Below are positions 2,398 to 42,778 of a DNA stretch of 64,000 nucleotides, piece by piece. The stretch is taken from the NCBI RefSeq assembly GCF_024623785.1, contig NZ_JANKBZ010000015.1:62001-126000 (forward strand). Direction: 5' to 3'. This stretch comes from Archangium lipolyticum. GTDB lineage: Bacteria > Myxococcota > Myxococcia > Myxococcales > Myxococcaceae. The notes under the pieces are model-generated. The model made no database searches and had not been told where the DNA came from. It saw only the letters and a program-made list of their open reading frames with translations. Positions within the stretch are counted from its first letter, which is position 1; each line of letters starts with the position of its first letter. The position numbers were made by a program, and so were the translations under genes.

Positions 2398-2415
2398 GCG
2401 CGCGGGCCGATACTA

Positions 2416-4305
<1,890 letters not shown>

Positions 4306-22207: not shown

Positions 22208-22235
22208 TTGAAACATACAAAGACGCTGGTAGTTT
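22208..22235 (+). promoter_or_regulatory. Candidate promoter of the giant lipoprotein gene
   Basis: TTGAAA (22208-22213) and TAGTTT (22230-22235) are 16 bases apart in the only clearly A/T-rich stretch nearby (about 22182-22320). The -10 match is weak. The position fits a start of transcription well before the ATG at 22317. Confidence 0.35.
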
Positions 22236-22316
22236 GCCGCGCTCTCAGAATCTCAAAACTTGAACACAGGGGCCCTCACCACGCGCATCCGCGGGAAGGG
22301 GCTCCTTTTGTCTTTT

Positions 22317-25300
22317 ATGCGCCCTGAATCCAGCGAAAGCCGTTTCCTGGTCCCCTCCCGCCTCTGGGTGGCCCTGCTGTGCACCGTGGGGCTCGCGTTC
22401 GGTTGCGGAGACCCGGAGCTCCCGGTCAACGGCGACACGGACGCCGATGGCTTGTCGACGAAGCTCGAGGCGCGCTACGGCACCGACCCGCGCAAGGCGG
22501 ACACGGACGAGGACGGCGTCACCGACGGCGCCGAGGTGGAGCGCGGCCTGGACCCGCTGTCCCCCGACACCGACCATGACGGCGTGAAGGACGGCGACGA
22601 GCTGCACGCCGGCCTCAACCCGAAGAGCCCGGACACGGACTCGGACGGACTGCCGGACGGGCGCGAGCTGGAGCTGGGGACGAACCCGCTGGCGGCCGAC
22701 TCGGACGGGGACACGCTCGTGGACGGTGCCGAGCTGGCCGCGGGCACCCACCCCGCGAAGGCGGACACGGACGGCGATGGCCTGCCGGACAACCAGGAGA
22801 AGACGCTGGGGACGGATCCGCTGCGCCCCGACACGGACGACGACGGGGTGAGCGATGGCGAGGAGCGCGCCGCGGGGACGGATCCGCTGAAGAAGGACAC
22901 GGACGGTGACGGCCTGGATGACGGCACCGAGCGCCGGCTGGGCACCAACCCGAAGGAGAAGGACACCGACGGCGACACGCTCGCGGACGCGGACGAGGTG
23001 CGCGACGGCACCGACCCGCTGCGCGCCGACACCGACGGTGACGGCATGTCCGACCCGGACGAGAAGCGCATCGGCACGGACCCGAAGCGGGCGGACGCGG
23101 ACGAGGACCCGGACAACGATGGCCTGACGAACGCGGGCGAGCTGGCCGCGGGCACGCTCGTGCGCAACCCGGACACGGACGGTGACGGGCTGCTGGACGG
23201 CGTGGACCCGCACCCGCTCGTGAGCGACCGCACGGACACGGACCAGGACGGCGACGGCCTGCCCGACGTCATCGACCCGAACCCCAAGCGCGCCGACACC
23301 GATGGGGACGGGCTGCTGGATGGCCAGGAGGACAAGAACAAGAACGGCATCGTCGACCGCGGCGAGACAGACCCGCGCGACCCGGACTTCGACAACGATG
23401 GCCTCTCCGACGGCGAGGAGGTGGCGACGGGCCGCGATGGCTTCATCACCGACCCGCTCAGCCGGGACACGGACGGCGACGGCCTGCTCGACGGCGTGGA
23501 CCCGAACCCCGTGGACCGCACCATTCCCCCGGGCGGCAACACGGGTGACGGCGACGGCGACGGCCTGCCCGATACGAAGGATCCGGATCCGGCCAACCCG
23601 GACACCGACGGCGACGGCCTGCTGGATGGCCAGGAGGACACGGACCGTGATGGCGTGCTCGACGCGGGCGAGACGGACCCGAGGAAGCCGGACACCGACG
23701 GCGACGGCCTCTCCGACTTCGAGGAGCGCATCCCCGGCCGCGACGGCTTCGTCACCGACCCGCGCAAGAAGGACACGGACGGCGACGGCCTGCTCGACAG
23801 CGTGGACCCGAACCCGCTCGTCCCCGCGACCGGCGGCACGCCCGGAGACCGGGACGGCGACGGCATCCCCAACACGGAGGACCCCTCGCCCGACAACCCG
23901 GACATGGACGGTGACGGCCTGCTGGATGGTCAGGAGGACACCAACAAGAACGGCCGCGTCGACGCGGGCGAGACCGACCCGAAGAAGGCGGACACGGACG
24001 GCGACGGCCTGAACGATGGCCTCGAGGTGCTCGTCGCGGGCACCCACCCCGTCAACGCCGACACGGACGGCGACCTCCTCTCCGACGGACAGGAGGACAA
24101 GAACAAGAACGGCCGCGTGGACCCGGGCGAGACCGACCCGAAGAAGGCGGACACGGACGGCGATGGCCTGAAGGACGGTGATGAGATCGCCCGTGGCACG
24201 GACCCGCTGAAGAAGGACACGGACGGCGACGGCCTGGAGGACGGCCGCGAGGTGGAGCTCGGCACCGACCCGAAGAACCCGGACACCGACGGTGACGGCA
24301 TCCCCGACGGCGTGGAGGTGGGCAGCGGGACGGATCCGAAGGTGAACGACGCGGACGCGGACCCGGACCACGACGGCCTCACCAACAAGCAGGAGGCGGA
24401 GATCGGCACGCGCGCCGACATGCCGGACACGGACGGTGATGGCCTGCTCGACGGCGTGGACCCCTTCCCGCTCGACAAGTTCCGCCCGGGCCCCTCCACG
24501 GGTGACACGGACGGCGATGGCCTGCCCGATGACAAGGACCCCGACCCGCGCCTGCCGGATACGGACGGTGACGGCCTGCTGGATGGCCAGGAGGATCGCA
24601 ACAAGAACGGCCTGCTCGACCCGGGCGAGACGAGCCCGCGTCTGCGTGACACCGATGGCGACGGCCTGAGCGACGGCCAGGAGGACAAGAATCGCAACGG
24701 CCAGGTGGACGCGACCGAGACCGACCCGCGCAACCCGGACACGGATGGGGACAACGTGCGGGACGGACTGGACCCGGCGCCGCTCGACCCGACCGTGCCA
24801 CCGTACGTGCCGCCCGACCAGGACTCGGACGGCCTGCCCGACGACGTGGACGCGCACCCCACCGTCGCGGACTTCGACCGCGACGGCCTCATGGACGGCC
24901 TGGAGGACCGCAACAAGAACGGCCAGGTGGACCCCGGCGAGACCGATCCCGCCGTGGCCGACACCGATCATGACGGCCTCTTCGACGGCCTGGAGGACGC
25001 CAACGCCAACGGCGTGGTGGACCCCATCGAGACGGATCCGCTGAAGGCGGACACCGACGGCGACAAGCTGCTCGACGGCGTGGACCCCTACCCGCTCGAC
25101 CCGACGCGGCCGGACGTGGGCTCCGCGCCGGACACCGACCATGACGGCCTGCCCGACGCCAAGGACCCGAACCCCACCAAGGCGGACACCGACAGCGACG
25201 GCCTGCTGGATGGCCAGGAGGACCGCAACAAGAACGGCACGGTGGACCCGGGAGAGACCGACCCGCGGGACCCCGACACCGACAACGACGGCCTGGTGGA

Positions 25301-28300
25301 CGGATACGAGGACTTCGACCGCGACGGCGTGGTGGACGCCAACGAGACCAACCCGCTCGTGGCCGACACGGACGGCGATGGCCTGCTCGACGGCGTGGAC
25401 CCCTTCCCGCTGGAGCAGAACCCTCCCCCGCCGGGCGACAGCGACGGCGACGGCCTGCCCAACGCGGTCGACCCCAACCCGGTGAAGCCGGACACGGACA
25501 CCGACGGCCTGCTCGACGGCCTGGAGGACCGCAACAAGAACGGCGTGCTCGACACGGGCGAGACCGACCCGAGCGACCCGGACACCGACGATGACGGGCT
25601 GCTCGATGGCCGCGAGGACAAGAACTTCAACGGCGTCGTGGATCCGGACGAGACGAACCCGCGCGTCTGGGACACGGACGGCGACGGCATCAGCGACGGA
25701 GAGGACGCGGCACCGCTGGACCCGACCGCCTCGGCGGACACGGACGACGATGGCGTCACCGACGACCTCGACACCGACGACGACAACGACGGCCTGAGCG
25801 ACACCGAGGAGCTGGAGCCCGGCACCGACGGCTTCGTCACCGACCCGCGCAAGTGGGACACGGACGGTGACGGCATCGGCGACCGCACGGACCTGCAGCC
25901 GCTGGAGGCGGATGCGGACAACGACGGGCTGACGGACGGCGAGGAGGACAAGAACGGCAACGGCATCGTCGACGCGGGCGAGACCAACCCGACCAACGCC
26001 GACAGCGACAACGACGGCATCGACGACGGCACCGAGCAGAAGAACGGGACGGACCCGCTGGTGCGCACGCTCACGCTGACGGGCGTCTTCCCCAGCTTCG
26101 GCACGCAGTCGGGCGGCACGCTGGTGGAGCTCACCGGCACCGGCTTCACCACCGGCATGGCGGTGAAGTTCGGGGGCAATGCCGCCTCGGCCATCTCCGT
26201 CATCTCCAACAAGAAGCTCACCGCCCGCACGCCGTCGTCCACGGCCGTGGGCGCGGTGGACGTGACGATCATCGACAACGAGAGCGGGACGGCGACCGCC
26301 ACGGACGCCTTCACCTACACGCTCTATTCGGAGATTCGCGAGTCGCGGACCATCGGCGCGACCAACACCGACTACGAGAAGGCCTGCCTCACGGTGGATG
26401 GCCCGGTGACGGTCACCATCAACGGCCGCCACGAGTTCCAGTGCCTCATCCTGAAGCGTGGCGCCGTGGTGACCCATGACGCCGCGACGCGGATGGACCT
26501 GAAGGTCACCTCCATCGTGGACATCGACGCGGACAGCCGCATCGACGTGACGGGCAGGGGCGCGCTGGGTCCCATCGCGGGCAGCGGCCCGCAGGTGGGT
26601 GGCGCGGGCGCGAGCCACGGCGGCGCGGGCGGTGACAACCCGAACGGCGTGGTCCAGGACGAGCCGGCCAGCACGGCCAATGACGTGCATGGCCAGTACG
26701 CGAGGCCCACCGACTTCGGCTCGGGAACCAGCGTGGTGCGTGGCGGTGGCTCGGTGACGCTCGACCTGGGCACCACCGGTCAGATGGTGGTGAACGGAGC
26801 CATCGTGGCGGACGGCTCGAATGGCCCCGGCACGGGCAGTGGCGGCGCTGGCGCGGGTGGCTCCCTCTACCTCATCACCCGCCGGCTGGAGGGCACGGGC
26901 CACATCCGCGCCCACGGTGGTGGGGCCACGGGCACGGGCACGGGTGGTGGCTCCGGCGGCCGTATCGCCCTCGTGGGCCTGGACGACGACGGCCTGCGCG
27001 GCGGCTTCGCCGACAGCGGCCTGTACGACACCGTCACCACGCGCGGCGGCACGGGCACCTTCCCCGGCGGCGCCGGTACGGTGTTCCTGCGCACCCGCTC
27101 GCAGCAGCACGGTGACCTCGTCATCGACAACGGCGGCACCGTGGCGCGCACCCCGCTGCTCACGGCGCCCAAGGGCCTGGTGGGCGCGGTGAGCGCCACC
27201 GGCCTTCAGAACTTCAGCCTGGTGATGCCCACGGACCGCTACGTGGGCACCTTCCTGCGGCCCAACGTCAACGCCAACCTCACCGAGACGCTCGCGGACG
27301 ACGTCTACTTCGAGGTGAAGGGCAACGACGGCATGACGTTCACGCTCTCGGGCGACCCGAGGAACGTGGCGTCCAACGGCGACCCGTACCGGGGCATCTT
27401 CGTCTTCGACAACCTGGACGTTCGCGGTGGCGCGCAGGTGTCCACCAGCGGTGACGTCCTCGTGCTCTCCGGCGACCGCGCCAGCGGGGATGACACCACC
27501 TTCGTGCTCCACGGCTCGCTGAACGCCACCTACGTGGAGCTCGAGGGGCTCGACCGGCTCATCGTGAAGGATAATTTCGGCGTGGTGGACGTGGGCACCA
27601 CCTTCGCGCCGGTGCGCAACGTCAACATCGCCAACGCCACCGGCCGCTTCGAGTCGCTGCGCGCCACCGAGACGCTCTCCGTCATCAACAGCACGCTCAC
27701 CACGAGCAGGCTGAGCGCGGGCGGCAACCTGGTCATCACCCACTCCACGCTCGACCAGGTGCAGTCGCTGGCGGGCCAGGAGGTGTCTCTCACGGACAAC
27801 AGCTCCGTGACGCACCGGACGGGCAGCGCGGCGGGCCTCACCTTCCAGGCGCGCGCGAAGCTCACCATCGACGCCACCAGCAAGGTGGACGTGTCGGGCA
27901 AGGGCCATGACGGCTTCCGCGGCTCCTCGACCACGGGCCGCGCCACGCACGCCGCCTCCTATGGTGGCACGGGCGCGAAGAGTGGCACCGGCACCACCAA
28001 CGACGTGTACGGCTACTACGGCGACCCGAAGGAGCCGGGCAGCGGCGGTGGCTCCGGCGCCAGACGCGGTGGCGGCCTCGTGCGCATCCTCTCCGGCTCG
28101 GCTGGCGCGGTGGTGCTCGACGGCGCCCTCATCGCCAACGGCCAGGGTGGATGCAGCGGCGGCGGCTCGGGTGGCGCGGTGTACGTCGAGGCTGGCTCGC
28201 TCTCCGGTACGGGCTCCATCTCCGCCAACGGTGGCGCGGGTGACGCGTGCGCGGGTGGCGGCGGTGGCCGCATCGCCCTGGTGGGCTTCGACGCCTCCCG

Positions 28301-31300
28301 GGTGTCCGGCAGCTTCGCCGACCCGGCGCTCTATACGAAGGTGACCGCCTCGGGCGGTATCAGCAGCACGGCCAACCTCAACGGCAGCGCCGGTACCGTC
28401 TTCCTCAAGTCGGCCACGCAGACGTGGGGTGACCTCGTGGTGGACAACCGCGGCGTGGTGGCCACCACCACCCTGCCGGGCATCCCGGACAGCACCGCGG
28501 AGATCGTCCGGGCGGATCGCCTCGAGGACGCCAGCCTCCGGCTGCCGCAGGACTTCTACGTGGGCTACCTGCTCAACCCCAACGTGGCGCAGAACGCCAC
28601 CCAGACGCTCACGGACGACACGTTCCTGCGCATCACCGGCAACACGGCGACGCAGCTCTTCGTCACGCCGGACCCCCGCACCGTGGCGCGCGCCGGCAAC
28701 AAGATGCGCGCCGCCTACGTCTTCGACAACCTCGAGGTGCGCGGTGGCGCCCAGCTCGCCACCACGGGCGACATCCTCGTGAAGGAGGGTGACCGCTCCA
28801 GCGGCGACACGACGACGTGGCTCACCAGCGGCGCGGTGAACGCGCACTACCTGGAGCTCGTGGGCCTGCAGAAGATGGTGGTGACGGGCACCTTCGGAAC
28901 CGTGCAGCCCGGCAGCGCCATGAGCCAGCCCGTCGTGGTGGAGGTGGCGGGCGCCAACGGCGCGATGCCCGAGCTGCGCGCGGCCAGCAAGGTCCAGATC
29001 GTCAACAGCACCCTCACCCTCACGGGCACCGGGGACACGCTGTCGGCCAACGACATCCTCCGCGTCGCGGACGGGAGCACCGTCACCGTCAATGGGCTGA
29101 AGACCGAGGGCACGCTGTCCGTGGAGGGCAGCGTGGTGTCCTCGCAGCACGTGGTGGCCCGGCAGGTGTCCCTCACGCGCAACGCCACCCTCACCCACCC
29201 GGCGATGGAGCCGGCCCGGCCCCTGCCCCAGCTCGCCCTGGAGGTGCGCGACCTGGTCTCCATCGAGTCGGGCAGCGCCATCGACGTGTCGAGGAAGGGC
29301 TACTCCGGCACGCGCACGGGCCTCACCGCGTCCGGCAACTCCGTGGGCGGCTCGTACGGCGGCCTGGGCGGAGACGTGAACACGGCCACGACCGCGAACG
29401 CCACGCCCAATGACACCTATGGCAACCATGCCTCGCCCAACGAGCTCGGCAGCGGTGGCCAGTCGGGCAACTCGCGGGGCGGCGGTCTGGTCCGCCTCCG
29501 CATGGGCGCCACGGGCGTGCTCAGCCTCGACGGCGCCATCCGGGCCAACGGTGAGAACCACAACTACGGCGCGGGCTCGGGCGGCGGTATCTACGTGGAG
29601 GCCAGGGTGCTGAAGGGCACCGGCTCCATCACCGCCAACGGCGGCAACGCGCTCGACCTCGACTACAGCTCGGGTGGCGGTGGCCGCATCGCCCTCGTGG
29701 GCTACGATGCGGCCCAGGCGGCCGGTAGCTTCTCGGACGCCAACCTCTACACGAAGGTCACCGCCTTCGGCGGCCGGAGCAGGGCCGGGAGCGCCGGCAA
29801 CGGCGGCGCGGGCACCGTCTTCCTCAAGTCGGCGGCCCAGGCGCATGGTGACCTCATCGTCAACAACGGCGGCGTCACCGGGGCCACCACCCCGCTGCCC
29901 ACCATCCCCACGGGCACCATCGAGGTCCTCACCTCCAACCGCCTGGAGAACTCGCGGCAGAACATGGTGAGCGACCTCTACGTGGGCTACCTGCTCAACC
30001 CCAACGTGGAGCAGAACACCACGCCCACGCTGAGCGACGACACGTTCCTCCCCGTCACGCGCAACACCGCGACGCAGCTCTTCGTGGCCTCGGATCCGCA
30101 GACGCTCGCGGCCACGGGCAACACCATGCGGGCGGTGTTCGTGTTCGACAACCTGGAGGTGCGCGACGGCGGCCGGCTGCTCACCCCCGAGGGCGACATC
30201 CTCGTGTACGAGGGCGACCGCTCCAGCGGTGACGCCACCAGCTACGTCACCTCCGGCGAGGTCGTGGCGCACACCCTGGAGCTGCTCAACGTGGACCACG
30301 TCAGCGTGTCCGGCAGCCTCGGCTCGGTGAACGCGCTGGCGTCCGTCAGCAACGTGGGCACGCTCGACCTCATCGACGCCAGGGGCAACCTGGACACCCT
30401 GAAGGCGCGCGACGTCATCCGCATCTCCGGCAGCGAGCTCACCTTCTCCGGCCCGGCCACCTCGCTGCAGGCCTCCAAGCTCATCCAGATCGCCAACAGC
30501 ACCGTGACGCTGCAGGACGTGGCGACGGACCGGCTCTCGCTCGAGAACAGCACGGTGTCGGCGCGCAGGCTGACGGCCAATGACGTGTCCCTCACGCGCA
30601 ACACGAAGCTGACTCACGAGCCGGGCAAGATGCCGGGTCTGGCCATCGAGAGCGCCCGCACGCTGCTCATCGAATCGGGCAGCAGCATCGACGTGAGCGG
30701 CAAGGGCCACGAGAAGTCCATCCCGGCCTTCGCCAGCATCTGGACCAACTACGCGGGCGGCTCGTACGGCGGCATGGGTGGAGACAACTCCAACGCCCTC
30801 TATGAGCCGACGCCCACCTACGGCTACTACGGCTCGCCCAACGAGCTGGGCAGCGGCGGCTACACCAACGGGAGCAGCGTCATGTCCCGCGGTGGTGGCC
30901 TGGTGCGCATCCGCATGGCCCAGGGCGGCACCATCACCCTGGACGGCGACCTCAAGTCCAACGGCGCCAGCTACGATTACGGCTCCGGCTCCGGCGGCGG
31001 CGTCTACGTGGAGACGGCGGCCCTCGGTGGTACGGGCTCCATCTCCGCCAACGGCGGTACCTCCAACGACAACGACTACGGCAGCGGCGGTGGTGGCCGT
31101 ATCGCCATCGTGGGCTTCGACGAGGGCAAGCTGACGGGCAGCTTCGCCGAGGGCCCCCTCTACACGAAGGTGACGGCCCATGGCGGCGGCAAGGGCCAGC
31201 CGGGCGGCGCGGGAACGGTCTTCCTCAAGTCCACCGCGCAGCAGCACGGCGACCTCATCGTCGACAACAACAACAACCTGGCCACGCTCGCCGCTGGAAA

Positions 31301-34300
31301 GCCCGTGCCCGCCACCCACCTGCCGGGCATCCAGGCCCAGAACGAGGTGGTCCGGAGCGACCGGGTGGTGGACACACGCCTGACGCTCGTCCCCAATCTG
31401 TACGTGGGCTACCTGCTCAGCCCGAGCACCACGCAGAACGCCACGGCCACGCTGAGCGACGACACCTTCTTCCGCATCACCGCCAACACCGGCACGGAGC
31501 TCGTCCTCAATGGGGATCCGCGCACCCTGGCGAAGGTGGGGGACACGATGCGCTCGGTGTACGTGTTCGACAACCTGGAGGTGCGCGGTGGCGCTCGAAT
31601 CACCACCCCGGGCGACATCCTCGTGAAGAAGGGTGACCGCGCCACGGGCGACGACACCACCTACGACACGAGCGGTTCGGTGGACGCCCACTACCTGGAG
31701 CTCCAGGGTGTCAACCTCATGTACGTGAAGGGCCACTTCGGCAAGGTAGGCAGCCCCAAGGCGATGAGCCCCGTGGCCAACGTCCACATCCTTGGCGCCA
31801 AGGGCTACCTGGAGACCCTGGACGTCGGCGACTCGCTGGTCATCGTCAACAGTGACGTCACCTTCGGCAACACGGCCGACGCGCTGCGCGTGGGCAACAC
31901 CCTGCGCACCGTGAAGAGCACCGTCACCGTGGGCACGGCCACCACTCCCGGAAAGATGTTCTTCGAGGGTGGCACCGTGACGGCCCGCAAGCTGGCGGCC
32001 AGCGAGCTCTCCCTGACGTCGAATGCCGTCGTGACGCACACGCGAGGCGACGCGGCGGGTCTCACCCTCGACGGCGCGAGCAGGCTGACCATCGAGGCGG
32101 GCAGCGGCATCGACGTGAGCGGCAAGGGCTACGACAAGACGCTCCCGGCGCTGGAGTCGCAGTGGAGCAACTTCCAGGGTGGCTCGTATGGCGGCCTGGG
32201 CGGCAACCTCGACGCGAGCACGCCCGCGAAGCCGAACCCCACCTATGGCCACTACGCCTCGCCCAACGAGCTGGGCAGCGGCGGCTACCTGGCCGGCAAC
32301 AACCGGTCGCCCGGTGGCGGCCTGGTGCGTATCCGCATGGCCCAGGGCGGCACCATCACCCTGGACGGCACCATCAAGTCCAACGGAACCAGCTACGACT
32401 ACGGCTCCGGCTCCGGCGGCGGCATCTACGTGGAGACGGCGGCCCTGGGCGGCACCGGTGCCATCTCCGCCAACGGAGGCAGGTCCGACAACGCGTATGG
32501 CTGCGGTGGCGGTGGCCGCATCGCCCTCGTGGGCTTCACGCCGGGCGGACTGACGGGCGACTTCGCCGAGGGTCCGCTCTACGCGAACGTGACGGCCTGG
32601 GGCGGCGCCAACGGCAGCGCCACCAGCAACATGTCCGGTGGCGCGGGCACGCTCTTCCTCAAGTCCAGCACGCAGACCTGGGGTGACCTCGTCGTCGACA
32701 ACAACGGCACGAAGACGCTCTCCAGCACGCCGCTGCCGACGGTGACGGAGTCGGACGTGGAGGTGATGGGCCCCAACAGCCTGGAGAACACCCAGCTGGC
32801 GATGCTCCCCAACTTCCACACGGGCTACCTCCTCAACCCGAACACCACGCAGAACGGCACGAAGACGCTGACGGACGACCACTTCCTCCGCATCACGGGC
32901 AACACCGCGACGCGGCTCAGCCTGTCGGAGGATCCGCGTCCGTACGCGAAGGTCGGCGCTCCCATGCGCGCGGTCTTCGTCTTCGACAACCTGGAGGTCC
33001 GCGGCAACGGCCGGCTGTCCACCGAGGGCGACGTGCTCGTCTACAACGGCGATCGCTCGAGCAACGACACCGCGACGTTCGTCATGGGCGGCGAGGTGGT
33101 CGCCCACTACCTCGACCTGGCCGGCGTCGACCGGATGAGCGTCGCCGGTGGCATCGCGTCGGCGGAGTCGCTCGGCTCCATCAGCGAGGTGGGCGTGCTC
33201 GACCTGGTGGGCGCCAGCGGCACCATCGCGCAGCTCAAGGCGCGTGAGTCCATCCGCATCACCGGCAGCACGCTGAAGCTCGGCACCGACGGCTCGTCGG
33301 AGGCCGCGCTCACCGCGCCCCAGTCCATCCGCATCACCCACAGCACGGTGACGCTCACCTCCGCGGCGACCAACGGCCCGCTCACCATCGAGGGCAGCAC
33401 GGTCAGCGCCCGGAAGCTGTCGGCCCCCGACATCATCGTGCGCCACATCGAGCTGGCGGACGGCACCTTCCGGGGCGGCATCCTCACGCACGAGGAGGAG
33501 AACGCGGTGGGCCTCTCCATCGAGGGCGCCCGCACGCTCACCATCGACGCGAGGAGCAGCATCGACGTGAGCGGCAAGGGCTACACGAAGACGCTCCCGG
33601 CGCTGGAGTCCGACTGGACCAGCGGCGCGGGCGGCTCGTACGGCGGCCTCGGGGGCGGCTTCACGTCCCCGGCCAACCCGACCTACGGCCACTATGCCTC
33701 GCCCAACGAGCTGGGCAGCGGCGGCTACCTGGCCGGTAACACCCGGAGCCGGGGTGGCGGTCTGGTGCGCATCCGCATGGCCCCCGGCGGTGCCATCACC
33801 CTCAACGGCGCGATCAAGTCCGACGGTACCACCTACGACTACGGCGGCGGCTCCGGCGGCGGCATCTACGTGGAGACGGAGACCCTGGGTGGCACCGGCT
33901 CCATCTCCGCCCGAGGAGGTCTGGCGACCCACGCCAACTACGGCAGCGGTGGCGGTGGCCGCATCGCCCTCGTGGGCTTCGCGTCCAACGGCCTCACGGG
34001 CAGCTTCGCCGAGACGGGCCTGTACGCGAACGTCCTGGCCTACGGTGGCACGCACGCCACGAAGCCGGGCGGCGCGGGCACCGTCTTCCTCAAGTCCAGC
34101 ACGCAGACGAACGGTGACCTCCTCGTGGACAACAACGGCACCGTTGCTCCCACGCCGCTGCCGGGCGTGCCGGACATGAGCGTCGAGTTCGTCCAGGCGG
34201 ACCGGTTCATCGACTCGCGGCTGCACCTGGTGACCGACCTGTACAAGGGCTACCTGGTGAACCCGGACGTGGCGCAGAACGCCACGCCCACGCTGAGCGA

Positions 34301-37300
34301 CGACACCTTCTTCCGCATCGCCTCCAACACGGCGACGGACGTCATCGTCGAGGGGGATCTGCGATCGGTCGCCCACGTGGGAGACCGGGCGCGCGCGGTG
34401 TACGTGTTCGACAACCTGGAGGTGCGCGGCGGGGCCCAGCTCAACACCACGGGCGACATCCTGGTGAAGGAGGGCGACCGCTCCAGCGGCGACACCTCCA
34501 CGTACGTCACCACGGGCGCGGTCAACGGCCACACGCTGGAGCTGCTGGGCGTCCAGCGCATGGTGGTGCGCAACGGGTTCGGCAGGATGAACGCGGTGAA
34601 GGGCGTGGCCGACGTGCGCTTCATGAGCGCGACCGGCACCCTCACCCAGTCGCTCGACGCCAGCGAGTCCGTCCACGTCGAGGGCAGCACCCTGACCTTC
34701 GGCGCGGACGCGAACCTCACCGCGGGCAAGACGCTCAAGCTGCTGGGCAGCACGGTGACGGTGAACACGGCGCGCGGCGGTAACAGCCTCGTCATCGACG
34801 GTGGCACCGTGACCGCCCGGCGCCTCTTCAGCGCGGACATCGCCATCCAGGGCAACGCGACCGTCAACCACAAGGACGGGGACGAGGCGGGCCTCTCCAT
34901 CGACGGTGCCAGCCGGCTCTTCGTGCAGGCCAACAGCAGGATCGACGTGAGCGGCAAGGGCTATGAGCAGACGCGTCCGGGCCTGATGGACGGCTGGGTC
35001 AACGGCGGGGGTGGCTCGTATGGCGGCCTCGCGGGTGGAGCGGATGCGACCAGGCTCAACACCTATGGCCACTACGCCACGCCCAACGAGCTGGGCAGCG
35101 GCGGTTACCTCACCACCACCACCAAGGTGCGCGGCGGCGGTCTGGTCCGCATCCGCATGGCCATGGGTGGCGTCGTCACCCTGGATGGCGAGCTGCGGTC
35201 CGACGGTGTCACCCACGAGTACGGCGGTGGCTCCGGCGGCGGCATCTACGTGGAGACGGCGGCCCTGGGCGGCACGGGCACCATCTCCGCCAACGGTGGC
35301 CGGGCGACCCACGCCAACTACGGCAGTGGTGGTGGCGGCCGTATCGCGCTCGTGGGCTTCGCGCCCAACGGTCTGACGGGCAGCTTCGCCGAGACCGGCC
35401 TCTACTCGAAGGTGACGGCCCACGGAGGCACCCACGCCACGAAACCGGGCGGCGCGGGCACCGTCTTCCTCAAGTCCAACACGCAGACCTGGGGTGACCT
35501 CATCGTCAACAACCGTGGCACCGTCGCCTCCACGCCGCTGCCCACGCTGCCGGAGACGAGCATCGAGGTGGTGGGCGCCGACCGGCTGGAGAACTCGCGG
35601 CTCACGATGGTGCCGGGCCTCTACTCCGGCTACCTGGTGAACCCCGACACCGCGCAGAACGGCACGGCGACCCTCACGGACGACACGTTCCTCCCGCTGA
35701 AGACGAACTCCGAGACGCAATTCCTGGTGGACGGCGATCCGCGTCCGCTCACGGCGCCGGGCCGTACCCTCCGGGCGGTGTTCGTGTTCGACAACCTGGA
35801 GGTGCGGGGCGGGGCCCAGCTCGAGACGGCGGGCGACATCCTCGTGCACGGCGGCGACCGCGCCAGCGGAGACTCGCTCACGCTGCGACTGGGTGGCGCC
35901 GTCAACGCGCGCTACCTGGAGCTGGCCAACGTGGACCGCGTCGTCTACGAGGGCACCATTGGCAACGTGAAGCCGGGCGGCCACATGACGGTGCCGCAGA
36001 TGCTGCACGTGGTGGGCGCCACCGGCGCGCTGGGTGACGTGGCGGGCCAGGAAATCCGCATCGCCAACAGCAACGTGTCGGCGTCGAGCCTCGCCGCCTC
36101 CGACCTCATCTCGCTGGCGGGCACCACGCTGTCCGCTCCGATCATCAGCAGTGGCGGCACCATCGCCATGAGTGGCACGGGGACGGTGAGCGCCCGGAAG
36201 ATCAGTGCGCCCACCACGCTGCGCATCGGCCAGGGCGTGACGGTGAAGCAGTTCGCGGACAGGGACCCCGAGGGCCTCGGCTTCGAGGGGATGGCGCAGC
36301 TCTACCTGGACACGGGTGCGAAGATCGACGTGTCGGGCCAGGGCTACGAATGGCAGACGCCCACCGCCGGGACGCAGGCCTCGGCCATGGGCGGCTCGTA
36401 CGGAGGCCGGGGTGGCGGCAGCACCTACGGGGTGAGCGGCCACTACGCCCATCCGACCTCGCCGGGCTTCGGCGCCGGTACGGGCGGAGCACGCGGTGGT
36501 GGCCGGGTGCGCATCCACCTGCCCGCTGGCAGCGTGCTCACGCTGGATGGCAAGCTCCTCGCCGATGGCGCGGATGCCGCCAGCGGTGCCAATGGCGGCG
36601 GCAGCGGTGGCGCCATCGCCATCCGGACGACGCGGCTGACGGGTGTCGGTGACATCTCCGCCACGGGTGGAGACAGCGGCAACGCCAACAGCGGCGGTGG
36701 CGGTGGCGGCCGTATCGCCATCACCGGGCTCGGCCCGAGCGGACGGGAGAGCCACTTCGCCGGGAGCAACCTGTTCGCTCACGTCCTCGCCAGTGGCGGT
36801 GCGGGCAGCGGTACCACGCCGCAGCACGGCGCAGCCGGCACGGTGTACCTCGAGACCACGGCGCAGACGGAGGGAGAGGGAGACCTCATCGTGGACAACC
36901 AGGGCCGCACCGCCACCACGGAGATGGTGGACTTCCCCACCCGGGGGATGATCGACGCGGTGACGGACGACAGCATCATCAACCTCGTGCTGGACATGAC
37001 GCCCGACGCCTACGTGGGGCTGCTCCTGAAGCCAGACACGACGGATGCGCTGGACGGCAACCTGCGCGATGACGTGATGCTGCCCATCCTGTCGAACACG
37101 AAGACGGAGTTCGTGCTCGACGTGGCGAAGCTGGCGGGCCGTCCGCTCACCGACGTCGCGGTGAAGAACGGCTCGTACCTGCCCGCCTACGTCTTCGACA
37201 ACCTGGAGATCCGCGGTGGGGCCACGCTCTCCACCACGGGCGACATCGTAGTCAACGAGGGCGACCTGACGAGCGGTGACACCACCACCTTCACGCTGGT

Positions 37301-37394
37301 GAATGGCACCGGCTTGAGGGTCAACGCCATCGACCTGGACCTCGCTCACAAGAGCGGAACGGGCACCCTCACCGGCAACGTGTACACCCGCTGA
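22317..37394 (+). CDS. Giant repeat lipoprotein: TSP3, IPT/TIG and eight glycine-rich repeats
   Basis: About 5,025 residues. From the ATG at 22317 the N terminus is a lipoprotein signal with lipobox LAFGC (Cys30). A TTG 57 bases upstream is also in frame but gives a poorer signal. Residues about 40-1247 are about 50 thrombospondin type 3 repeats (DTDGDGLLDG type, often with DKNKNG), which bind calcium in known proteins. Residues about 1252-1334 form one IPT/TIG Ig-like domain (GVFPSFGTQSGG...LTGTGF). From about 1384 to the end there are eight diverged repeats. The frame is uninterrupted. This looks like a very large surface or matrix protein held by a lipid anchor, with a role in adhesion or motility possible but unproven. 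The stop overlaps the next gene's ATG. Confidence 0.93.
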   Translation: MRPESSESRFLVPSRLWVALLCTVGLAFGCGDPELPVNGDTDADGLSTKLEARYGTDPRKADTDEDGVTDGAEVERGLDPLSPDTDHDGVKDGDELHAGLNPKSPDTDSDGLPDGRELELGTNPLAADSDGDTLVDGAELAAGTHPAKADTDGDGLPDNQEKTLGTDPLRPDTDDDGVSDGEERAAGTDPLKKDTDGDGLDDGTERRLGTNPKEKDTDGDTLADADEVRDGTDPLRADTDGDGMSDPDEKRIGTDPKRADADEDPDNDGLTNAGELAAGTLVRNPDTDGDGLLDGVDPHPLVSDRTDTDQDGDGLPDVIDPNPKRADTDGDGLLDGQEDKNKNGIVDRGETDPRDPDFDNDGLSDGEEVATGRDGFITDPLSRDTDGDGLLDGVDPNPVDRTIPPGGNTGDGDGDGLPDTKDPDPANPDTDGDGLLDGQEDTDRDGVLDAGETDPRKPDTDGDGLSDFEERIPGRDGFVTDPRKKDTDGDGLLDSVDPNPLVPATGGTPGDRDGDGIPNTEDPSPDNPDMDGDGLLDGQEDTNKNGRVDAGETDPKKADTDGDGLNDGLEVLVAGTHPVNADTDGDLLSDGQEDKNKNGRVDPGETDPKKADTDGDGLKDGDEIARGTDPLKKDTDGDGLEDGREVELGTDPKNPDTDGDGIPDGVEVGSGTDPKVNDADADPDHDGLTNKQEAEIGTRADMPDTDGDGLLDGVDPFPLDKFRPGPSTGDTDGDGLPDDKDPDPRLPDTDGDGLLDGQEDRNKNGLLDPGETSPRLRDTDGDGLSDGQEDKNRNGQVDATETDPRNPDTDGDNVRDGLDPAPLDPTVPPYVPPDQDSDGLPDDVDAHPTVADFDRDGLMDGLEDRNKNGQVDPGETDPAVADTDHDGLFDGLEDANANGVVDPIETDPLKADTDGDKLLDGVDPYPLDPTRPDVGSAPDTDHDGLPDAKDPNPTKADTDSDGLLDGQEDRNKNGTVDPGETDPRDPDTDNDGLVDGYEDFDRDGVVDANETNPLVADTDGDGLLDGVDPFPLEQNPPPPGDSDGDGLPNAVDPNPVKPDTDTDGLLDGLEDRNKNGVLDTGETDPSDPDTDDDGLLDGREDKNFNGVVDPDETNPRVWDTDGDGISDGEDAAPLDPTASADTDDDGVTDDLDTDDDNDGLSDTEELEPGTDGFVTDPRKWDTDGDGIGDRTDLQPLEADADNDGLTDGEEDKNGNGIVDAGETNPTNADSDNDGIDDGTEQKNGTDPLVRTLTLTGVFPSFGTQSGGTLVELTGTGFTTGMAVKFGGNAASAISVISNKKLTARTPSSTAVGAVDVTIIDNESGTATATDAFTYTLYSEIRESRTIGATNTDYEKACLTVDGPVTVTINGRHEFQCLILKRGAVVTHDAATRMDLKVTSIVDIDADSRIDVTGRGALGPIAGSGPQVGGAGASHGGAGGDNPNGVVQDEPASTANDVHGQYARPTDFGSGTSVVRGGGSVTLDLGTTGQMVVNGAIVADGSNGPGTGSGGAGAGGSLYLITRRLEGTGHIRAHGGGATGTGTGGGSGGRIALVGLDDDGLRGGFADSGLYDTVTTRGGTGTFPGGAGTVFLRTRSQQHGDLVIDNGGTVARTPLLTAPKGLVGAVSATGLQNFSLVMPTDRYVGTFLRPNVNANLTETLADDVYFEVKGNDGMTFTLSGDPRNVASNGDPYRGIFVFDNLDVRGGAQVSTSGDVLVLSGDRASGDDTTFVLHGSLNATYVELEGLDRLIVKDNFGVVDVGTTFAPVRNVNIANATGRFESLRATETLSVINSTLTTSRLSAGGNLVITHSTLDQVQSLAGQEVSLTDNSSVTHRTGSAAGLTFQARAKLTIDATSKVDVSGKGHDGFRGSSTTGRATHAASYGGTGAKSGTGTTNDVYGYYGDPKEPGSGGGSGARRGGGLVRILSGSAGAVVLDGALIANGQGGCSGGGSGGAVYVEAGSLSGTGSISANGGAGDACAGGGGGRIALVGFDASRVSGSFADPALYTKVTASGGISSTANLNGSAGTVFLKSATQTWGDLVVDNRGVVATTTLPGIPDSTAEIVRADRLEDASLRLPQDFYVGYLLNPNVAQNATQTLTDDTFLRITGNTATQLFVTPDPRTVARAGNKMRAAYVFDNLEVRGGAQLATTGDILVKEGDRSSGDTTTWLTSGAVNAHYLELVGLQKMVVTGTFGTVQPGSAMSQPVVVEVAGANGAMPELRAASKVQIVNSTLTLTGTGDTLSANDILRVADGSTVTVNGLKTEGTLSVEGSVVSSQHVVARQVSLTRNATLTHPAMEPARPLPQLALEVRDLVSIESGSAIDVSRKGYSGTRTGLTASGNSVGGSYGGLGGDVNTATTANATPNDTYGNHASPNELGSGGQSGNSRGGGLVRLRMGATGVLSLDGAIRANGENHNYGAGSGGGIYVEARVLKGTGSITANGGNALDLDYSSGGGGRIALVGYDAAQAAGSFSDANLYTKVTAFGGRSRAGSAGNGGAGTVFLKSAAQAHGDLIVNNGGVTGATTPLPTIPTGTIEVLTSNRLENSRQNMVSDLYVGYLLNPNVEQNTTPTLSDDTFLPVTRNTATQLFVASDPQTLAATGNTMRAVFVFDNLEVRDGGRLLTPEGDILVYEGDRSSGDATSYVTSGEVVAHTLELLNVDHVSVSGSLGSVNALASVSNVGTLDLIDARGNLDTLKARDVIRISGSELTFSGPATSLQASKLIQIANSTVTLQDVATDRLSLENSTVSARRLTANDVSLTRNTKLTHEPGKMPGLAIESARTLLIESGSSIDVSGKGHEKSIPAFASIWTNYAGGSYGGMGGDNSNALYEPTPTYGYYGSPNELGSGGYTNGSSVMSRGGGLVRIRMAQGGTITLDGDLKSNGASYDYGSGSGGGVYVETAALGGTGSISANGGTSNDNDYGSGGGGRIAIVGFDEGKLTGSFAEGPLYTKVTAHGGGKGQPGGAGTVFLKSTAQQHGDLIVDNNNNLATLAAGKPVPATHLPGIQAQNEVVRSDRVVDTRLTLVPNLYVGYLLSPSTTQNATATLSDDTFFRITANTGTELVLNGDPRTLAKVGDTMRSVYVFDNLEVRGGARITTPGDILVKKGDRATGDDTTYDTSGSVDAHYLELQGVNLMYVKGHFGKVGSPKAMSPVANVHILGAKGYLETLDVGDSLVIVNSDVTFGNTADALRVGNTLRTVKSTVTVGTATTPGKMFFEGGTVTARKLAASELSLTSNAVVTHTRGDAAGLTLDGASRLTIEAGSGIDVSGKGYDKTLPALESQWSNFQGGSYGGLGGNLDASTPAKPNPTYGHYASPNELGSGGYLAGNNRSPGGGLVRIRMAQGGTITLDGTIKSNGTSYDYGSGSGGGIYVETAALGGTGAISANGGRSDNAYGCGGGGRIALVGFTPGGLTGDFAEGPLYANVTAWGGANGSATSNMSGGAGTLFLKSSTQTWGDLVVDNNGTKTLSSTPLPTVTESDVEVMGPNSLENTQLAMLPNFHTGYLLNPNTTQNGTKTLTDDHFLRITGNTATRLSLSEDPRPYAKVGAPMRAVFVFDNLEVRGNGRLSTEGDVLVYNGDRSSNDTATFVMGGEVVAHYLDLAGVDRMSVAGGIASAESLGSISEVGVLDLVGASGTIAQLKARESIRITGSTLKLGTDGSSEAALTAPQSIRITHSTVTLTSAATNGPLTIEGSTVSARKLSAPDIIVRHIELADGTFRGGILTHEEENAVGLSIEGARTLTIDARSSIDVSGKGYTKTLPALESDWTSGAGGSYGGLGGGFTSPANPTYGHYASPNELGSGGYLAGNTRSRGGGLVRIRMAPGGAITLNGAIKSDGTTYDYGGGSGGGIYVETETLGGTGSISARGGLATHANYGSGGGGRIALVGFASNGLTGSFAETGLYANVLAYGGTHATKPGGAGTVFLKSSTQTNGDLLVDNNGTVAPTPLPGVPDMSVEFVQADRFIDSRLHLVTDLYKGYLVNPDVAQNATPTLSDDTFFRIASNTATDVIVEGDLRSVAHVGDRARAVYVFDNLEVRGGAQLNTTGDILVKEGDRSSGDTSTYVTTGAVNGHTLELLGVQRMVVRNGFGRMNAVKGVADVRFMSATGTLTQSLDASESVHVEGSTLTFGADANLTAGKTLKLLGSTVTVNTARGGNSLVIDGGTVTARRLFSADIAIQGNATVNHKDGDEAGLSIDGASRLFVQANSRIDVSGKGYEQTRPGLMDGWVNGGGGSYGGLAGGADATRLNTYGHYATPNELGSGGYLTTTTKVRGGGLVRIRMAMGGVVTLDGELRSDGVTHEYGGGSGGGIYVETAALGGTGTISANGGRATHANYGSGGGGRIALVGFAPNGLTGSFAETGLYSKVTAHGGTHATKPGGAGTVFLKSNTQTWGDLIVNNRGTVASTPLPTLPETSIEVVGADRLENSRLTMVPGLYSGYLVNPDTAQNGTATLTDDTFLPLKTNSETQFLVDGDPRPLTAPGRTLRAVFVFDNLEVRGGAQLETAGDILVHGGDRASGDSLTLRLGGAVNARYLELANVDRVVYEGTIGNVKPGGHMTVPQMLHVVGATGALGDVAGQEIRIANSNVSASSLAASDLISLAGTTLSAPIISSGGTIAMSGTGTVSARKISAPTTLRIGQGVTVKQFADRDPEGLGFEGMAQLYLDTGAKIDVSGQGYEWQTPTAGTQASAMGGSYGGRGGGSTYGVSGHYAHPTSPGFGAGTGGARGGGRVRIHLPAGSVLTLDGKLLADGADAASGANGGGSGGAIAIRTTRLTGVGDISATGGDSGNANSGGGGGGRIAITGLGPSGRESHFAGSNLFAHVLASGGAGSGTTPQHGAAGTVYLETTAQTEGEGDLIVDNQGRTATTEMVDFPTRGMIDAVTDDSIINLVLDMTPDAYVGLLLKPDTTDALDGNLRDDVMLPILSNTKTEFVLDVAKLAGRPLTDVAVKNGSYLPAYVFDNLEIRGGATLSTTGDIVVNEGDLTSGDTTTFTLVNGTGLRVNAIDLDLAHKSGTGTLTGNVYTR
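22434..26057 (+). repeat. Thrombospondin type 3 repeat array (about 50 units)
   Basis: Inside the giant lipoprotein gene, units of 18-30 codons each begin with an Asp-rich loop such as DTDGDGL and end in GTDP, DPNP or GETDP. I counted about 50 loops by eye. Several carry a second loop, KNKNG or DRDG. At DNA level the units share GACACGGACGG(C/T)GA but vary at third positions. Confidence 0.9.
26466..37391 (+). repeat. Eight long glycine-rich repeats in the giant lipoprotein
   Basis: Units begin at about 26466, 27807, 29190, 30609, 32031, 33483, 34863 and 36243. Each runs in the same order: a (L/V)TH start, SxIDVSGKGY, GGSYGGxGG, PNELGSGG, RGGGLVRIRM, GSGSGGGIYVE, GTGSISANGG, GGGGRIALVGF, GGAGTVFLKS, YVFDNLEVRGGAQ and GDILVKEGDRSSGD, then Ser/Thr/Val-rich strands. 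The IDVSGKG anchor recurs every 1,344-1,452 bases. The eighth unit stops early, after the GDLTSGDTTTF element. The alternation of Gly-rich turns and short strands suggests a beta-helix or stacked beta fold, which is an inference. Confidence 0.9.
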
Positions 37395-38773
37395 TGAGGA
37401 CGCTCGTGTTCCAACGACGGAGGGTGCTCGCCGCCCTCCTCGCCTCCCTGCAGGCCGGATGCAGTGTCATGTCCGGCGGCTTCCAGGAGTGCGAGGAGGA
37501 CCGTGACTGCAAGTCGCTCGGCGACAACATGGTGTGCTTCCAGCCGGAGATGTTCTGCGTGACGGATCCGGATCCCTTCCAGCCCGACTGCCGGCTGCTG
37601 CTGGGGGATGCGAAGGATCCGCGCGCCCCGCGCCTGGGAGCACTGCTGCCCCTGAGCGACGCGGAGGGCCATCCCCTCGCGTCGGGCGAGACGCTGCGGC
37701 AGACATTGCAGCTCGCGCTCGAGGAGGTGAACGGCCAGGGAGGGCTCGGGCCCGCGGGGTTCAACCTGCGGGTCTGTGACACGCACGGAGACGCGGCCCG
37801 GGCCGCCGCCGAGGCCGGGTACCTGGCCTCCCGTGGCGTGGTGGCCCTCTTCACGGTGGGCGTCGAGGAGACGCTGGCCGTCGCGGAGAAGGCGATTCCC
37901 GCCTCCATGATGGTGTTCGGTCTGGACGCCTCGTCGTCCGAGGTCGCGGCGCTGCCGGACAGCGGGCTCGTGTGGAGCACCGCGCCGAGCGAGGCACGGG
38001 TGGGAGAGAGGGTCGCCCGCCTCGTGGCGGACGAAGCGGGGCTCCAGAAGGTGGCGCTGCTGGGAGCCGGGGGTCCCGAAGCGGAGAGGCTGGCGGAGGG
38101 GTTCCGCGCGGGCTTCACCGCGAATGCCTCCGGACGGGAGCTGAAGTCGTTCGGGTTCTCGCGAGGACCCGGACTCGACGAGGTGCTGGACCAGGCCGAT
38201 GCCTTCGCACCGGATGCGGTGGTGGTGGTGGTGGCCTCCGCCGACGAGGCGGTCCAGGTGGTGCGGTCGCTCGGTACACACGAGGCGTTGGCCCGTTCCC
38301 GGCTGTTCTTCCTGGGAGTCGGCCGCGAAGCGCGACTCCTGGAGGCCGTGCGGGGCGAGCCCCGGCTGAAGGGAGTCTCCGGTGCCTTCGTGCGCCCGCC
38401 AGCGCCCGAGGCCGTCGAGGGCTTCCGCTGGCGCTACCGGCTGCGCTTCCAGGGGGAGCCGGACGCGGCGGCGGCCTCCGCGCGAGCCCATGACGCGCTC
38501 TACTGCACGGCGCTCGCCGCCGTCGCCAGTGCGGGCCCCTCGGGAGAGCCGCCCCTCACGGGTCCCCAGCTCGCCCAGGGCATGTCCCGGCTACTCTCCG
38601 GGGTTCCGGCGACGCTCGGACCGTTGGATTTCTCCACCACGCGAGGCGACCTCCAGCGAGGCCTGTCCGTGAAGGTGGAGGGCGTCTCGGGAGGGCTCGC
38701 GTTCGACCCCCTCACCGGGGAGGAGGACGTGCACGTGGAGGAGTGGCACATCGTGGACGGTTTGAAGGAGTGA
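37394..38773 (+). CDS. Lipoprotein with type I periplasmic-binding fold
   Basis: A 459-residue lipoprotein with signal RRRVLAALLASLQAGC (Cys23). A Cys-rich segment follows (ECEEDRDCKSLGDNMVCF...FC...DC, about 33-66). Then comes a domain like the Leu/Ile/Val-binding or receptor-ligand (Peripla_BP_6) fold: LGALLPLSDAEG, TLQLALEEVNGQGGLG, LRVCDTHGDAARA, KVALLGAGGPEAERLAEGF, DAVVVVVASADEAVQVVRSL. No ABC-transporter permease or ATPase is nearby, so it is more likely a ligand sensor or structural partner than a transport component. Its ATG shares one base with the giant gene's stop (TGATG), indicating coupled translation and probably a shared task at the cell surface. Confidence 0.85.
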   Translation: MRTLVFQRRRVLAALLASLQAGCSVMSGGFQECEEDRDCKSLGDNMVCFQPEMFCVTDPDPFQPDCRLLLGDAKDPRAPRLGALLPLSDAEGHPLASGETLRQTLQLALEEVNGQGGLGPAGFNLRVCDTHGDAARAAAEAGYLASRGVVALFTVGVEETLAVAEKAIPASMMVFGLDASSSEVAALPDSGLVWSTAPSEARVGERVARLVADEAGLQKVALLGAGGPEAERLAEGFRAGFTANASGRELKSFGFSRGPGLDEVLDQADAFAPDAVVVVVASADEAVQVVRSLGTHEALARSRLFFLGVGREARLLEAVRGEPRLKGVSGAFVRPPAPEAVEGFRWRYRLRFQGEPDAAAASARAHDALYCTALAAVASAGPSGEPPLTGPQLAQGMSRLLSGVPATLGPLDFSTTRGDLQRGLSVKVEGVSGGLAFDPLTGEEDVHVEEWHIVDGLKE

Positions 38774-39436: not shown

Positions 39437-39916
39437 TCAGGACTCCGGCATCCGTGGCGAAAGCTCATCCGCGTCAAGCGATGACAGGAACGAGGCAAAG
39501 TCATCGGCCAGGAAGTAGAGGCTGCGCTCACCTGCACGAGCATGTCCATCCCAGTAGAAGATCGCTCCTGCGCGCTCCCCCACGGCTGACAAGCAGATCT
39601 TGTCGACGCCCTCTGTTGTTGCAATGGGAACCAGACCCGCGGGGATGCGGTCCCCGAAGACATCCAGGTTCCAATCCAGATTGCAGGATTCAACAGGGTC
39701 ATTCAATCCAAAGAACACGTGGATTCGACCACGTGAACCGCCCTCGAAACCACTGATCGTCAGCAGATCCCGCTCAGGGCGCCCGCCATTGGTGGCCAAC
39801 AAGAACTCCCTGTAGGAGGCAGGAAGGGCAAGGCCATGCTGCTCCTCGAAGGATCTGACGTCTTCCTCGACGAGAGGAGGCCCCCCCTCGCGTGTTCTTG
39901 GCAAGGCACCCATCAT
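39437..39916 (-). CDS. SMI1/KNR4 (SUKH-1) immunity protein
   Basis: A 159-residue protein of the SMI1/KNR4 (SUKH-1) family: FEEQHGLALPASYREFLLATNGG at the N terminus, ISGFEGG and HVFFGLND in the core, and a C-terminal SLYFLADDFASFLSSL. SUKH proteins often neutralise nuclease toxins by direct binding. The ATG at 39916 overlaps the TGA of the toxin gene (ATGA), and GGAGGT lies just in front, so toxin and immunity should be made together. A second ATG at 39913 is equally possible. The DNA is clearly poorer in G and C than the surroundings (27 of 60 bases in 39661-39720), a sign of recent acquisition. Confidence 0.88.
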   Translation of the reverse strand: MMGALPRTREGGPPLVEEDVRSFEEQHGLALPASYREFLLATNGGRPERDLLTISGFEGGSRGRIHVFFGLNDPVESCNLDWNLDVFGDRIPAGLVPIATTEGVDKICLSAVGERAGAIFYWDGHARAGERSLYFLADDFASFLSSLDADELSPRMPES

Positions 39917-41607
39917 TGACCTCCCGAGAAACCACCGGTGTGTCCCGTCCTTGCGTGGATTCCCGTAGGGACGAGTTGCAGAGTCGTTCCGTCCTGGTGG
40001 TGATGCCAGGTCATCCCCTTGGGCGTTTCCCTGAGCCCCGCGGCCTTGTTCGCGGCGGCGAAATCCCTGACCCGAGAGCCGGTGAATGAAATCTTCACCT
40101 CGACCTCAACGACCCCGGCAGCTCTGAAGTCGGGATAGCCGTCGGCATCGAACGGAACGTCGGTAACTGGATGCTTCCTTCCCGCCAGATGAGCGTTCCG
40201 GATGGGAGTTTCGGTTATCGGAACGTGGCCCGCCCGCTCGGACTTCGCCTCCGACAACCACACATGGGCCCTCGACACATTGCCCCGAGTTTCGTAGAGG
40301 GCCACGGCCCCAGCCTCGCCCCCTTCGTGAACCAACAGGGCCGCCTCCCGGCTGGCCTGGATGTACCTGGCCAACTGACGAATGCCGTTCCCCCCCAGCC
40401 GCATCCACAGTCGCGCCGCTACCTCGGTCAGGCCCTCGAATCCCAGTTCCGGCACCTGGAATTGCCCTACCCGTCCCCATCCGAACCCCTTGCCCTCGGA
40501 GAGATAACGCACGCCCCTACCGCCAGCGTACAAGGCCACCAGCACCGTCGCGGCCGACAGCTCGCGAGTGGCCTGCTCGTAATGGCCCTGGGATAGCGAG
40601 TACACCCCATGACACGTGCCAGCCACCAGGTTGAAGAAGCCCACCGGTACACCAAAGGTCAGCGCATCGAGGCTCCCCAGGGCCACGCTTTCCGGTGAGA
40701 GGGTTCTCGCGAACTCCGCCCGCTCCACCTCGTCGAGAGCCTGCTGGTAGAGCGGGGGCAGTTGCCCGCGCTGCGTGTCGTACTTCATGGCCAGGGCACC
40801 CCGGCGCAGCTCGCTGGTGGAAAGGGCCTCGTTGGCGGCGCTGGCCAAACCCCGGGCAACGTCGCCCAGGCTCTCGGGGCGGTCCTTGTAGTCCACGAGG
40901 TTCAGGCCCCTCTGCCTCAGCGCCTCGTCAACGGCAGCCATCCGCCCGAGGGTTTCAGCGAGGTGTTTGTCGCGGGCGAGCAGGAGGAGCACATGGTGCA
41001 AATCATCGGTGAACGCCGAGTGGATGATGAAAAGGGCGAACAACTCGGCCCTGGCGGCACCGTACTCCCGGGTGGCGGTGACGAGGAATGCGGCGCGTTT
41101 GCGGTTGAGGACATCGGCGCCCTCGCGCAGAGGACCCAGGGAGCCGAGCCGGACGGCGGACCAGCCATCCAATCCTTCCACCACCCGGGCCATATCCAAC
41201 CCGTGCTGCAACGCGATGAATTCAGCTGGCGAGGTGCACGCCAGAAAGGGGGCGAGCACCTCCTGGCCGGATGACAGCAAAGGCCAGCCTGGGGGCCGCG
41301 CCTCCTCCTTCAGGCAACTCGCACCCCGCACGAGTTGAAGGGCTTCGGCCTTCTCCCCGGGGAAACCACCCGCTCCTCCTGACACCTCCCCCCGCGTGGA
41401 GGAGAGGGCCAATGGGTTCGGCCCGAACGAGGCAGGCAGTGAGTGCACACCAAAGCCACTCAACGAACTCCCACGCGGATGGTCCGTGGCACACCCGGCC
41501 ACCAGTACCAGTGCTACCAGGAGCAGACGGACCGGGCCGGATGGATGTTCGCCCCCATGCAGGAAGGGCCTTCGAGGGAGAAGGGTCGATCTCACGGATG
41601 GAAGCAT
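39913..41607 (-). CDS. SitA-like lipoprotein toxin with C-terminal HNH nuclease
   Basis: About 564 residues from the ATG at 41607 (another in-frame ATG is at 41646, and neither has a clear ribosome site). The signal ends in RLLLVALVLVAGC (Cys39), so it is a lipoprotein. The long middle is helical, with a hydrophobic Gly-rich stretch (FGVPVGFFNLVAGTCHGVYSL). The last 100 residues are an HNH/Endo VII-type nuclease with a triple-His motif: GRKHPVTDVPFDADGYPDF, FAAANKAAGL, MTWHHHQDGTTLQLVP, then IHARTGHTGGFSGG. This fits the Tox-HNH-HHH toxin family. A lipoprotein leader, a swapped-in toxin end and a coupled immunity gene match the SitA toxins, which myxobacteria pass between cells by outer-membrane exchange. 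That delivery route is inferred. Confidence 0.82.
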   Translation of the reverse strand: MLPSVRSTLLPRRPFLHGGEHPSGPVRLLLVALVLVAGCATDHPRGSSLSGFGVHSLPASFGPNPLALSSTRGEVSGGAGGFPGEKAEALQLVRGASCLKEEARPPGWPLLSSGQEVLAPFLACTSPAEFIALQHGLDMARVVEGLDGWSAVRLGSLGPLREGADVLNRKRAAFLVTATREYGAARAELFALFIIHSAFTDDLHHVLLLLARDKHLAETLGRMAAVDEALRQRGLNLVDYKDRPESLGDVARGLASAANEALSTSELRRGALAMKYDTQRGQLPPLYQQALDEVERAEFARTLSPESVALGSLDALTFGVPVGFFNLVAGTCHGVYSLSQGHYEQATRELSAATVLVALYAGGRGVRYLSEGKGFGWGRVGQFQVPELGFEGLTEVAARLWMRLGGNGIRQLARYIQASREAALLVHEGGEAGAVALYETRGNVSRAHVWLSEAKSERAGHVPITETPIRNAHLAGRKHPVTDVPFDADGYPDFRAAGVVEVEVKISFTGSRVRDFAAANKAAGLRETPKGMTWHHHQDGTTLQLVPTGIHARTGHTGGFSGGQ

Positions 41608-41697
41608 ACTGGCAGGGGACGCTCGGACCAGGCCGTGAGTCTCCATCGCGGAGTCCGCGATTCACGAGCAAGGCCGGCGCGCTCGAGCCAGGATTCT

Positions 41698-42654: not shown

Positions 42655-42778
42655 GCGCAACAGCTAGGTCCGCTCCTCCCTGGGAGGAAGCGGACCCCGG
42701 GACAGGACGTCGGCCGCCATACACGCCCGCCAAAATCCGTGCTCCCCCCCGACATCGTGGACATGATGGTGCCCCTCG

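Follow-up and report, generated by a model that had tools for sequence, protein, structure and literature searches.

A 5,025-residue predicted lipoprotein of Archangium lipolyticum with a TSP3 stalk, a TIG domain and eight predicted β-helix modules, a candidate fibrillar adhesin

The window analysed here, a stretch of 64,000 nucleotides from Archangium lipolyticum, contains on its plus strand a gene of 5,025 open codons followed by a stop, in agreement with a preliminary description of this DNA that had reported one uninterrupted frame of about 15 kb. The product is a predicted lipoprotein, and the gene overlaps a downstream gene for a second lipoprotein of the Peripla_BP_6 family (Table 1). 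With respect to a collapsed repeat, against which the preliminary description had cautioned, no N bases were present in the giant gene or in the window, the longest exact DNA repeat inside the gene was 47 bp, and the eight modules described below were 53-70% identical to one another at the DNA level; collapse during assembly is thus unlikely. The CAI of the gene lay inside the range of the host ribosomal set (0.67-0.86), and recent alien codon usage was therefore rejected. Opposite the giant gene, the minus strand carries an antisense open frame of 5,034 codons (22245-37349). TTA, CTA and TCA were absent from the plus frame, to which the family scan was confined, when about 16 were expected from the codon use of neighbouring genes. 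We therefore attribute the antisense frame to strong codon bias, and rejected it as a second gene.

Table 1. Features of the giant gene and its surroundings (positions in the window).
Feature	Position	Strand	Basis
Giant lipoprotein ORF, 5,025 aa	22317..37394	+	Single open frame; GC3 0.937; CAI 0.754
Predicted signal peptide and lipobox, Cys30 (LAFG-C)	22317..22406	+	Sequence; PROSITE PS00013 fit by eye
TSP3 stalk, aa 31-1250, 46 DxDxD-type units	22407..26066	+	PF18884 9.6e-85; composition; unit-for-unit kept in L025 and L026
IPT/TIG domain	26073..26318	+	PF01833 4.8e-12; model region resembles TIG/IPT folds
Predicted β-helix module R1 (first; common with module 1 of relatives)	26325..27671	+	Repeat comparison; TIG-R1-R2 model; module tree
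Module R2 (middle type)	27630..29003	+	Repeat comparison; TIG-R1-R2 model; module tree
Module R3 (middle type)	29010..30425	+	Repeat comparison; module tree
Module R4 (middle type; pairs with R6)	30438..31844	+	Repeat comparison; module tree
Module R5 (middle type; pairs with R7)	31857..33263	+	Repeat comparison; module tree
Module R6 (middle type), modelled alone	33294..34679	+	pLDDT 96.1, pTM 0.95; fold matches
Module R7 (middle type)	34695..36062	+	Repeat comparison; module tree
Module R8 (last; common with module 3 of relatives)	36063..37349	+	Repeat comparison; module tree
Peripla_BP_6-family lipoprotein, 459 aa, TGATG overlap with giant gene	37394..38773	+	PF13458 5.7e-22; sequence
Accessory block absent from closest congener G003	22227..38761		Flanks match 94.6% and 88.5%

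The N-terminal half of the giant protein consists of a lipid-anchor signal, a stalk and a single domain of another type. The predicted lipobox was compared by eye with the PROSITE pattern and fits it, and the relative from Lujinxingia described below has a lipobox (VAVA-C) at the same place. The stalk matched TSP3_bac (PF18884) with 278.3 bits, compared with a gathering score of 25; the calcium-type TSP3 repeats proposed earlier were thus confirmed in type, and their number, previously put at about 50, was set at 46 by a motif scan (aa 40-1240). The stalk contains no cysteine and has a net charge of -268, and no convincing sequence relatives of it were found in the PDB. As had been described, one IPT/TIG domain follows (aa ~1253-1334), and the model of this region resembled TIG/IPT folds with Z of about 9.5-11. 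A MYXO-CTERM tag (TIGR03901) was not reported for the C-terminal piece, and the protein ends in ...VYTR.

The giant frame scored 669.9 bits, against a cut-off of 400, on the NCBIfam model of CglD (NF033765), a lipoprotein of adventurous gliding, and the protein might be taken for a gliding-motility lipoprotein of this type. This score, however, was the sum over 11 TSP3 stretches, and the matches of this frame in a search of the genome were confined to model positions 141-387. Both are lipoproteins with TSP3 repeats, but the giant protein lacks the rest of the model and no VWA domain was found in it by Pfam. Moreover, a full-length CglD is encoded elsewhere in the genome (G000:C9:202762-206097; 1,615 bits, model positions 6-1124), and all five sampled congeners have their own CglD without having the giant gene. 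CglD identity was therefore rejected, the match reflecting the TSP3 repeat type only. A role of this kind is extremely improbable, and gliding is the weakest of the functions that the preliminary description had proposed. Given that summed TSP3 repeats alone can lift a protein above the cut-off of this model, automatic annotation may misname TSP3 proteins; a repeat-rich model can in this way give its name to a different protein. As a separate observation, the minus strand of the window at 60829-63945 encodes a protein that matched an AgmC N-terminal gliding model (378 bits against a cut-off of 275). This match starts at model position 106, and the protein start may lie outside the window; the protein also has calcium-adhesin-type repeats and a weak MYXO-CTERM match.

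The C-terminal part of the giant protein, from aa ~1337 to 5011, is made up of the eight repeats of about 460 residues that had been noticed earlier, with mutual identities of 36-58%. At the cut-offs of Pfam and NCBIfam, the modules had no match to any family. A Pfam scan of the giant protein brought up none of the known adhesive domains, and a search of the PDB with the modules gave no convincing sequence relatives, the weak matches being fusion constructs that contain linkers. Prediction of the structure of one repeat unit, a check suggested earlier, was carried out with AlphaFold2. R6 alone was predicted with high confidence (Table 1) as a right-handed β-helix that carries a small β-barrel; the TIG-R1-R2 model (pLDDT 87.8, pTM 0.80) had strands throughout. 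When R6 was compared by VIA-align with chains ranked by Foldseek, the nearest solved fold was the secretion domain of EtpA (8cpk; Z 15.2, 196 residues aligned, 2.7 Å), followed by the secretion domain of HxuA (4i84; Z 12.8, 176 aligned, 3.2 Å), EtpA 8vbb (Z 12.5) and 4wa0, a possible Caldicellulosiruptor adhesin (Z 12.3). The best matches were thus mostly surface or secreted adhesins. Module residues ~311-389 resembled a small phage tail-tip protein domain (Z 8.4, 71-74 residues, 2.2 Å), and we therefore interpret every module as a β-helix into which a barrel is inserted. A β-helix rises 4.8 Å per coil. If the eight predicted modules are collinear, and if a coil takes about 20 residues (our own estimate), the array would extend for approximately 60-75 nm.

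β-Helices are also frequent in glycan-cleaving enzymes, and a common fold does not show a function. Among the weaker fold matches were GH110, PL6 and phage tailspikes, as would be expected if the giant protein were a glycan-degrading β-helix enzyme on a stalk. However, the near-invariant residues of 82 aligned modules were mostly glycine, together with R243, T283, N300 and T307. The alignment showed no outstanding cluster of conserved acidic residues, its Asp positions reaching only 71-85%. We consider an enzyme of this kind very unlikely.

Relatives were sought with a profile built from the eight modules. Among the loci examined, the whole layout was found in two proteins: one of 2,612 aa from Lujinxingia vulgaris TMQ2 (L026), with lipobox, stalk, TIG and three modules, and one from the Myxococcales MAG UBA5297 (L025), with stalk, TIG and three modules, which is cut by the contig end. 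The earlier statement that no characterised protein has the full layout stands with regard to NCBIfam, the PDB and open-access papers. The layout nevertheless recurs in two other lineages, where there are three modules and not eight, and so is not unique. The stalk was 63% identical to that of L026 over 1,169 columns and 68% identical to that of L025 over 757 columns, and the stalks of L025 and L026 were 70% identical to each other. The 1,200-residue stalk aligned unit for unit across all three proteins; the alignment score was 3,767 in the real order, compared with 2,221 (sd 91) when the Lujinxingia units were shuffled, indicating that the stalk has been passed on as a whole, with little change in length. 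Conservation was lower in the module region (43-50%, vs 63-68% in the stalk): the TIG-R1-R2 stretch was 49% and 43% identical to the two relatives, and the best single case was R1 against UBA module 1 (50%).

In the module tree, R1 clustered with module 1 of each relative and R8 with module 3 of each (support 100/99 in both cases), while R2-R7 fell with the middle modules. R3-R7 formed a clade (87/86) that included the pairs R4-R6 (91/91) and R5-R7 (85/83). The middle module thus appears likely, judging from the tree, to have expanded from one to six copies in this protein; this is not proven, because the fork uniting middle and last modules had a support of only 84/87 and was drawn open. Among relatives whose C-terminus was complete and which had two or more full-length modules, nearly all ended no more than about 90 residues after the last module, L097 being the clear exception; the array thus usually forms the distal end of the protein. 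Modules of other kinds or settings were also encountered. A predicted lipoprotein of ~1,118 residues (L109, 949-4302) has two modules at its end, and frames of 1,139-1,309 codons resembling it occur in several Myxococcaceae genomes. Shorter modules that do not have the barrel part lie near the C-terminal end of frames of ~10-11 thousand codons in other Myxococcaceae; in two frames of ~11,400 codons (L155+L156 in G128; L158+L159 in G101), five or six short modules are located C-terminally, and Ig-like, TIG-like and propeller-like stretches are also present. A plasmid search returned one weak match and a phage search none.

Presence across genomes, which the preliminary description had suggested comparing, was limited. 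The giant gene was missing from all five sampled congeners, and a search of 195 genomes from the phylum found closely related modules in only two, A. lipolyticum and G036. The closest congener, G003, is without exactly the accessory block of 16.5 kb that comprises the giant gene and the coupled gene for the periplasmic-binding-type lipoprotein, with 36 bp between the flanks; in the four other congeners, ~650-3,000 bp of other sequence replaces the region from about 22125 to 41770-42708. The downstream lipoprotein has only a ~32% paralog elsewhere in the genome and in congeners, and no relative of it was found at the Lujinxingia and UBA loci, where the neighbours are unrelated; a conserved neighbourhood was rejected. 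A mobile element was rejected as well, since the window contained no tRNA and the 130-bp stretches around the block ends, when compared, shared no direct repeat of more than 8 bp. The block may have been acquired by transfer or may have been lost repeatedly. Beyond it, at 39437-41646 on the minus strand, a SUKH-family gene adjoins a lipoprotein gene with a C-terminal WHH nuclease domain. This pair, of low GC3 (0.66 and 0.76), looks like a lipoprotein toxin and a cognate immunity gene, and the central part of the region has many copies across the genus.

Presence in only one of six sampled congeners would fit a strain-specific trait, such as a fibre that does not bind prey but links cells of one strain to each other, or a cell to the exopolysaccharide that it produces. 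Other myxobacterial TSP3 surface proteins are named for cohesion (MtsD, NF047639), and TraB has a TSP3 linker (PMC12045341). On the other hand, the giant frame scored 80.2 bits against the MtsD cut-off of 800, so that MtsD identity was rejected, and the occurrence of a relative in a different class makes a tag restricted to kin less plausible. Kin cohesion or matrix binding is, in our estimation, rather unlikely.

In the reading that we prefer, to which we assign a probability of roughly 60%, the giant protein is a fibrillar adhesin of the outer membrane whose stalk is stiffened by calcium and whose tip serves for binding. The family matches, the structure prediction and the relatives support the earlier idea of a calcium-type, far-reaching adhesive fibre. 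In the proposed mechanism, the acylated N-terminus would anchor the protein in the outer membrane; the cysteine-free stalk, once exported, would bind calcium extracellularly and stiffen to a rod of fixed length; TIG would serve as the joint between stalk and module array; and the C-terminal half would form a β-helix rod presenting repeated binding surfaces far from the cell. The ligand would probably be a glycan or the surface of a neighbouring cell or prey cell. Duplication of middle modules may lengthen the tip and multiply binding sites, and the gene would be gained or lost as an accessory block together with the periplasmic-binding-type lipoprotein gene. No gene for surface export of the giant lipoprotein was identified. 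A lipobox alone is no proof of surface display, and the product of the gene that overlaps on the downstream side is a lipoprotein of periplasmic-binding type; the giant protein might accordingly be a structural component that resides in the periplasm or spans the envelope without being exposed. Its estimated length, however, would exceed the width of the periplasm, and its nearest folds are secreted adhesins; we regard this reading as distinctly unlikely.

Contact is the first step of both myxobacterial and bradymonad predation, and to our knowledge few contact molecules are known for either. A fixed stalk combined with a variable number of modules would allow a direct test of whether fibre reach or valency sets prey range or contact. 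The prey-contact role suggested earlier received some circumstantial support from the Lujinxingia relative: strain TMQ2 belongs to a predator group (PMC7460792) in which predation is contact-dependent, and it has been speculated that prey adhesion is needed (PMC11509652). This relative, together with the presence of a separate, conserved CglD for gliding, makes prey contact a more likely role than gliding, on circumstantial grounds. More tentatively, and with less confidence than we place in the fibrillar adhesin itself, the ~460-residue module may represent a previously undescribed kind of adhesive tip in Myxococcota and Bdellovibrionota, predators included, that is carried on interchangeable stalks (TSP3, Ig-like, TIG) and tuned in length and valency by duplication of middle modules between fixed end modules.

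Compared with known systems, the protein is closest in order of parts to the uncharacterised L026 and L025, which differ in having three modules and no matching downstream lipoprotein gene. With the two-partner-secreted EtpA and HxuA (8cpk, 8vbb, 4i84) its modules share, in the predicted model, the right-handed β-helix (Z 12.5-15.2), but each of them contains a β-barrel insertion, and the array has eight of them; moreover, the N-terminus consists of lipobox and TSP3 repeats, and no TPS secretion domain was detected in the Pfam scan. Like fibrillar adhesins as defined previously (PMC8286594), the giant protein is long and multidomain, with tandem stalk repeats (46 TSP3 motifs), an anchor at one end and a putative binding part at the other. 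It differs in its N-terminal lipid anchor and its TSP3 stalk, and it is not filed as a fibrillar adhesin by that definition because its tip matches no known adhesive Pfam domain. Finally, although its extender is built from TSP3 repeats rather than β-sandwiches and its lipid anchor is N-terminal, the protein would share with RTX adhesins (PMC7493085) the principle that calcium stiffens a long extender carrying the binding region.
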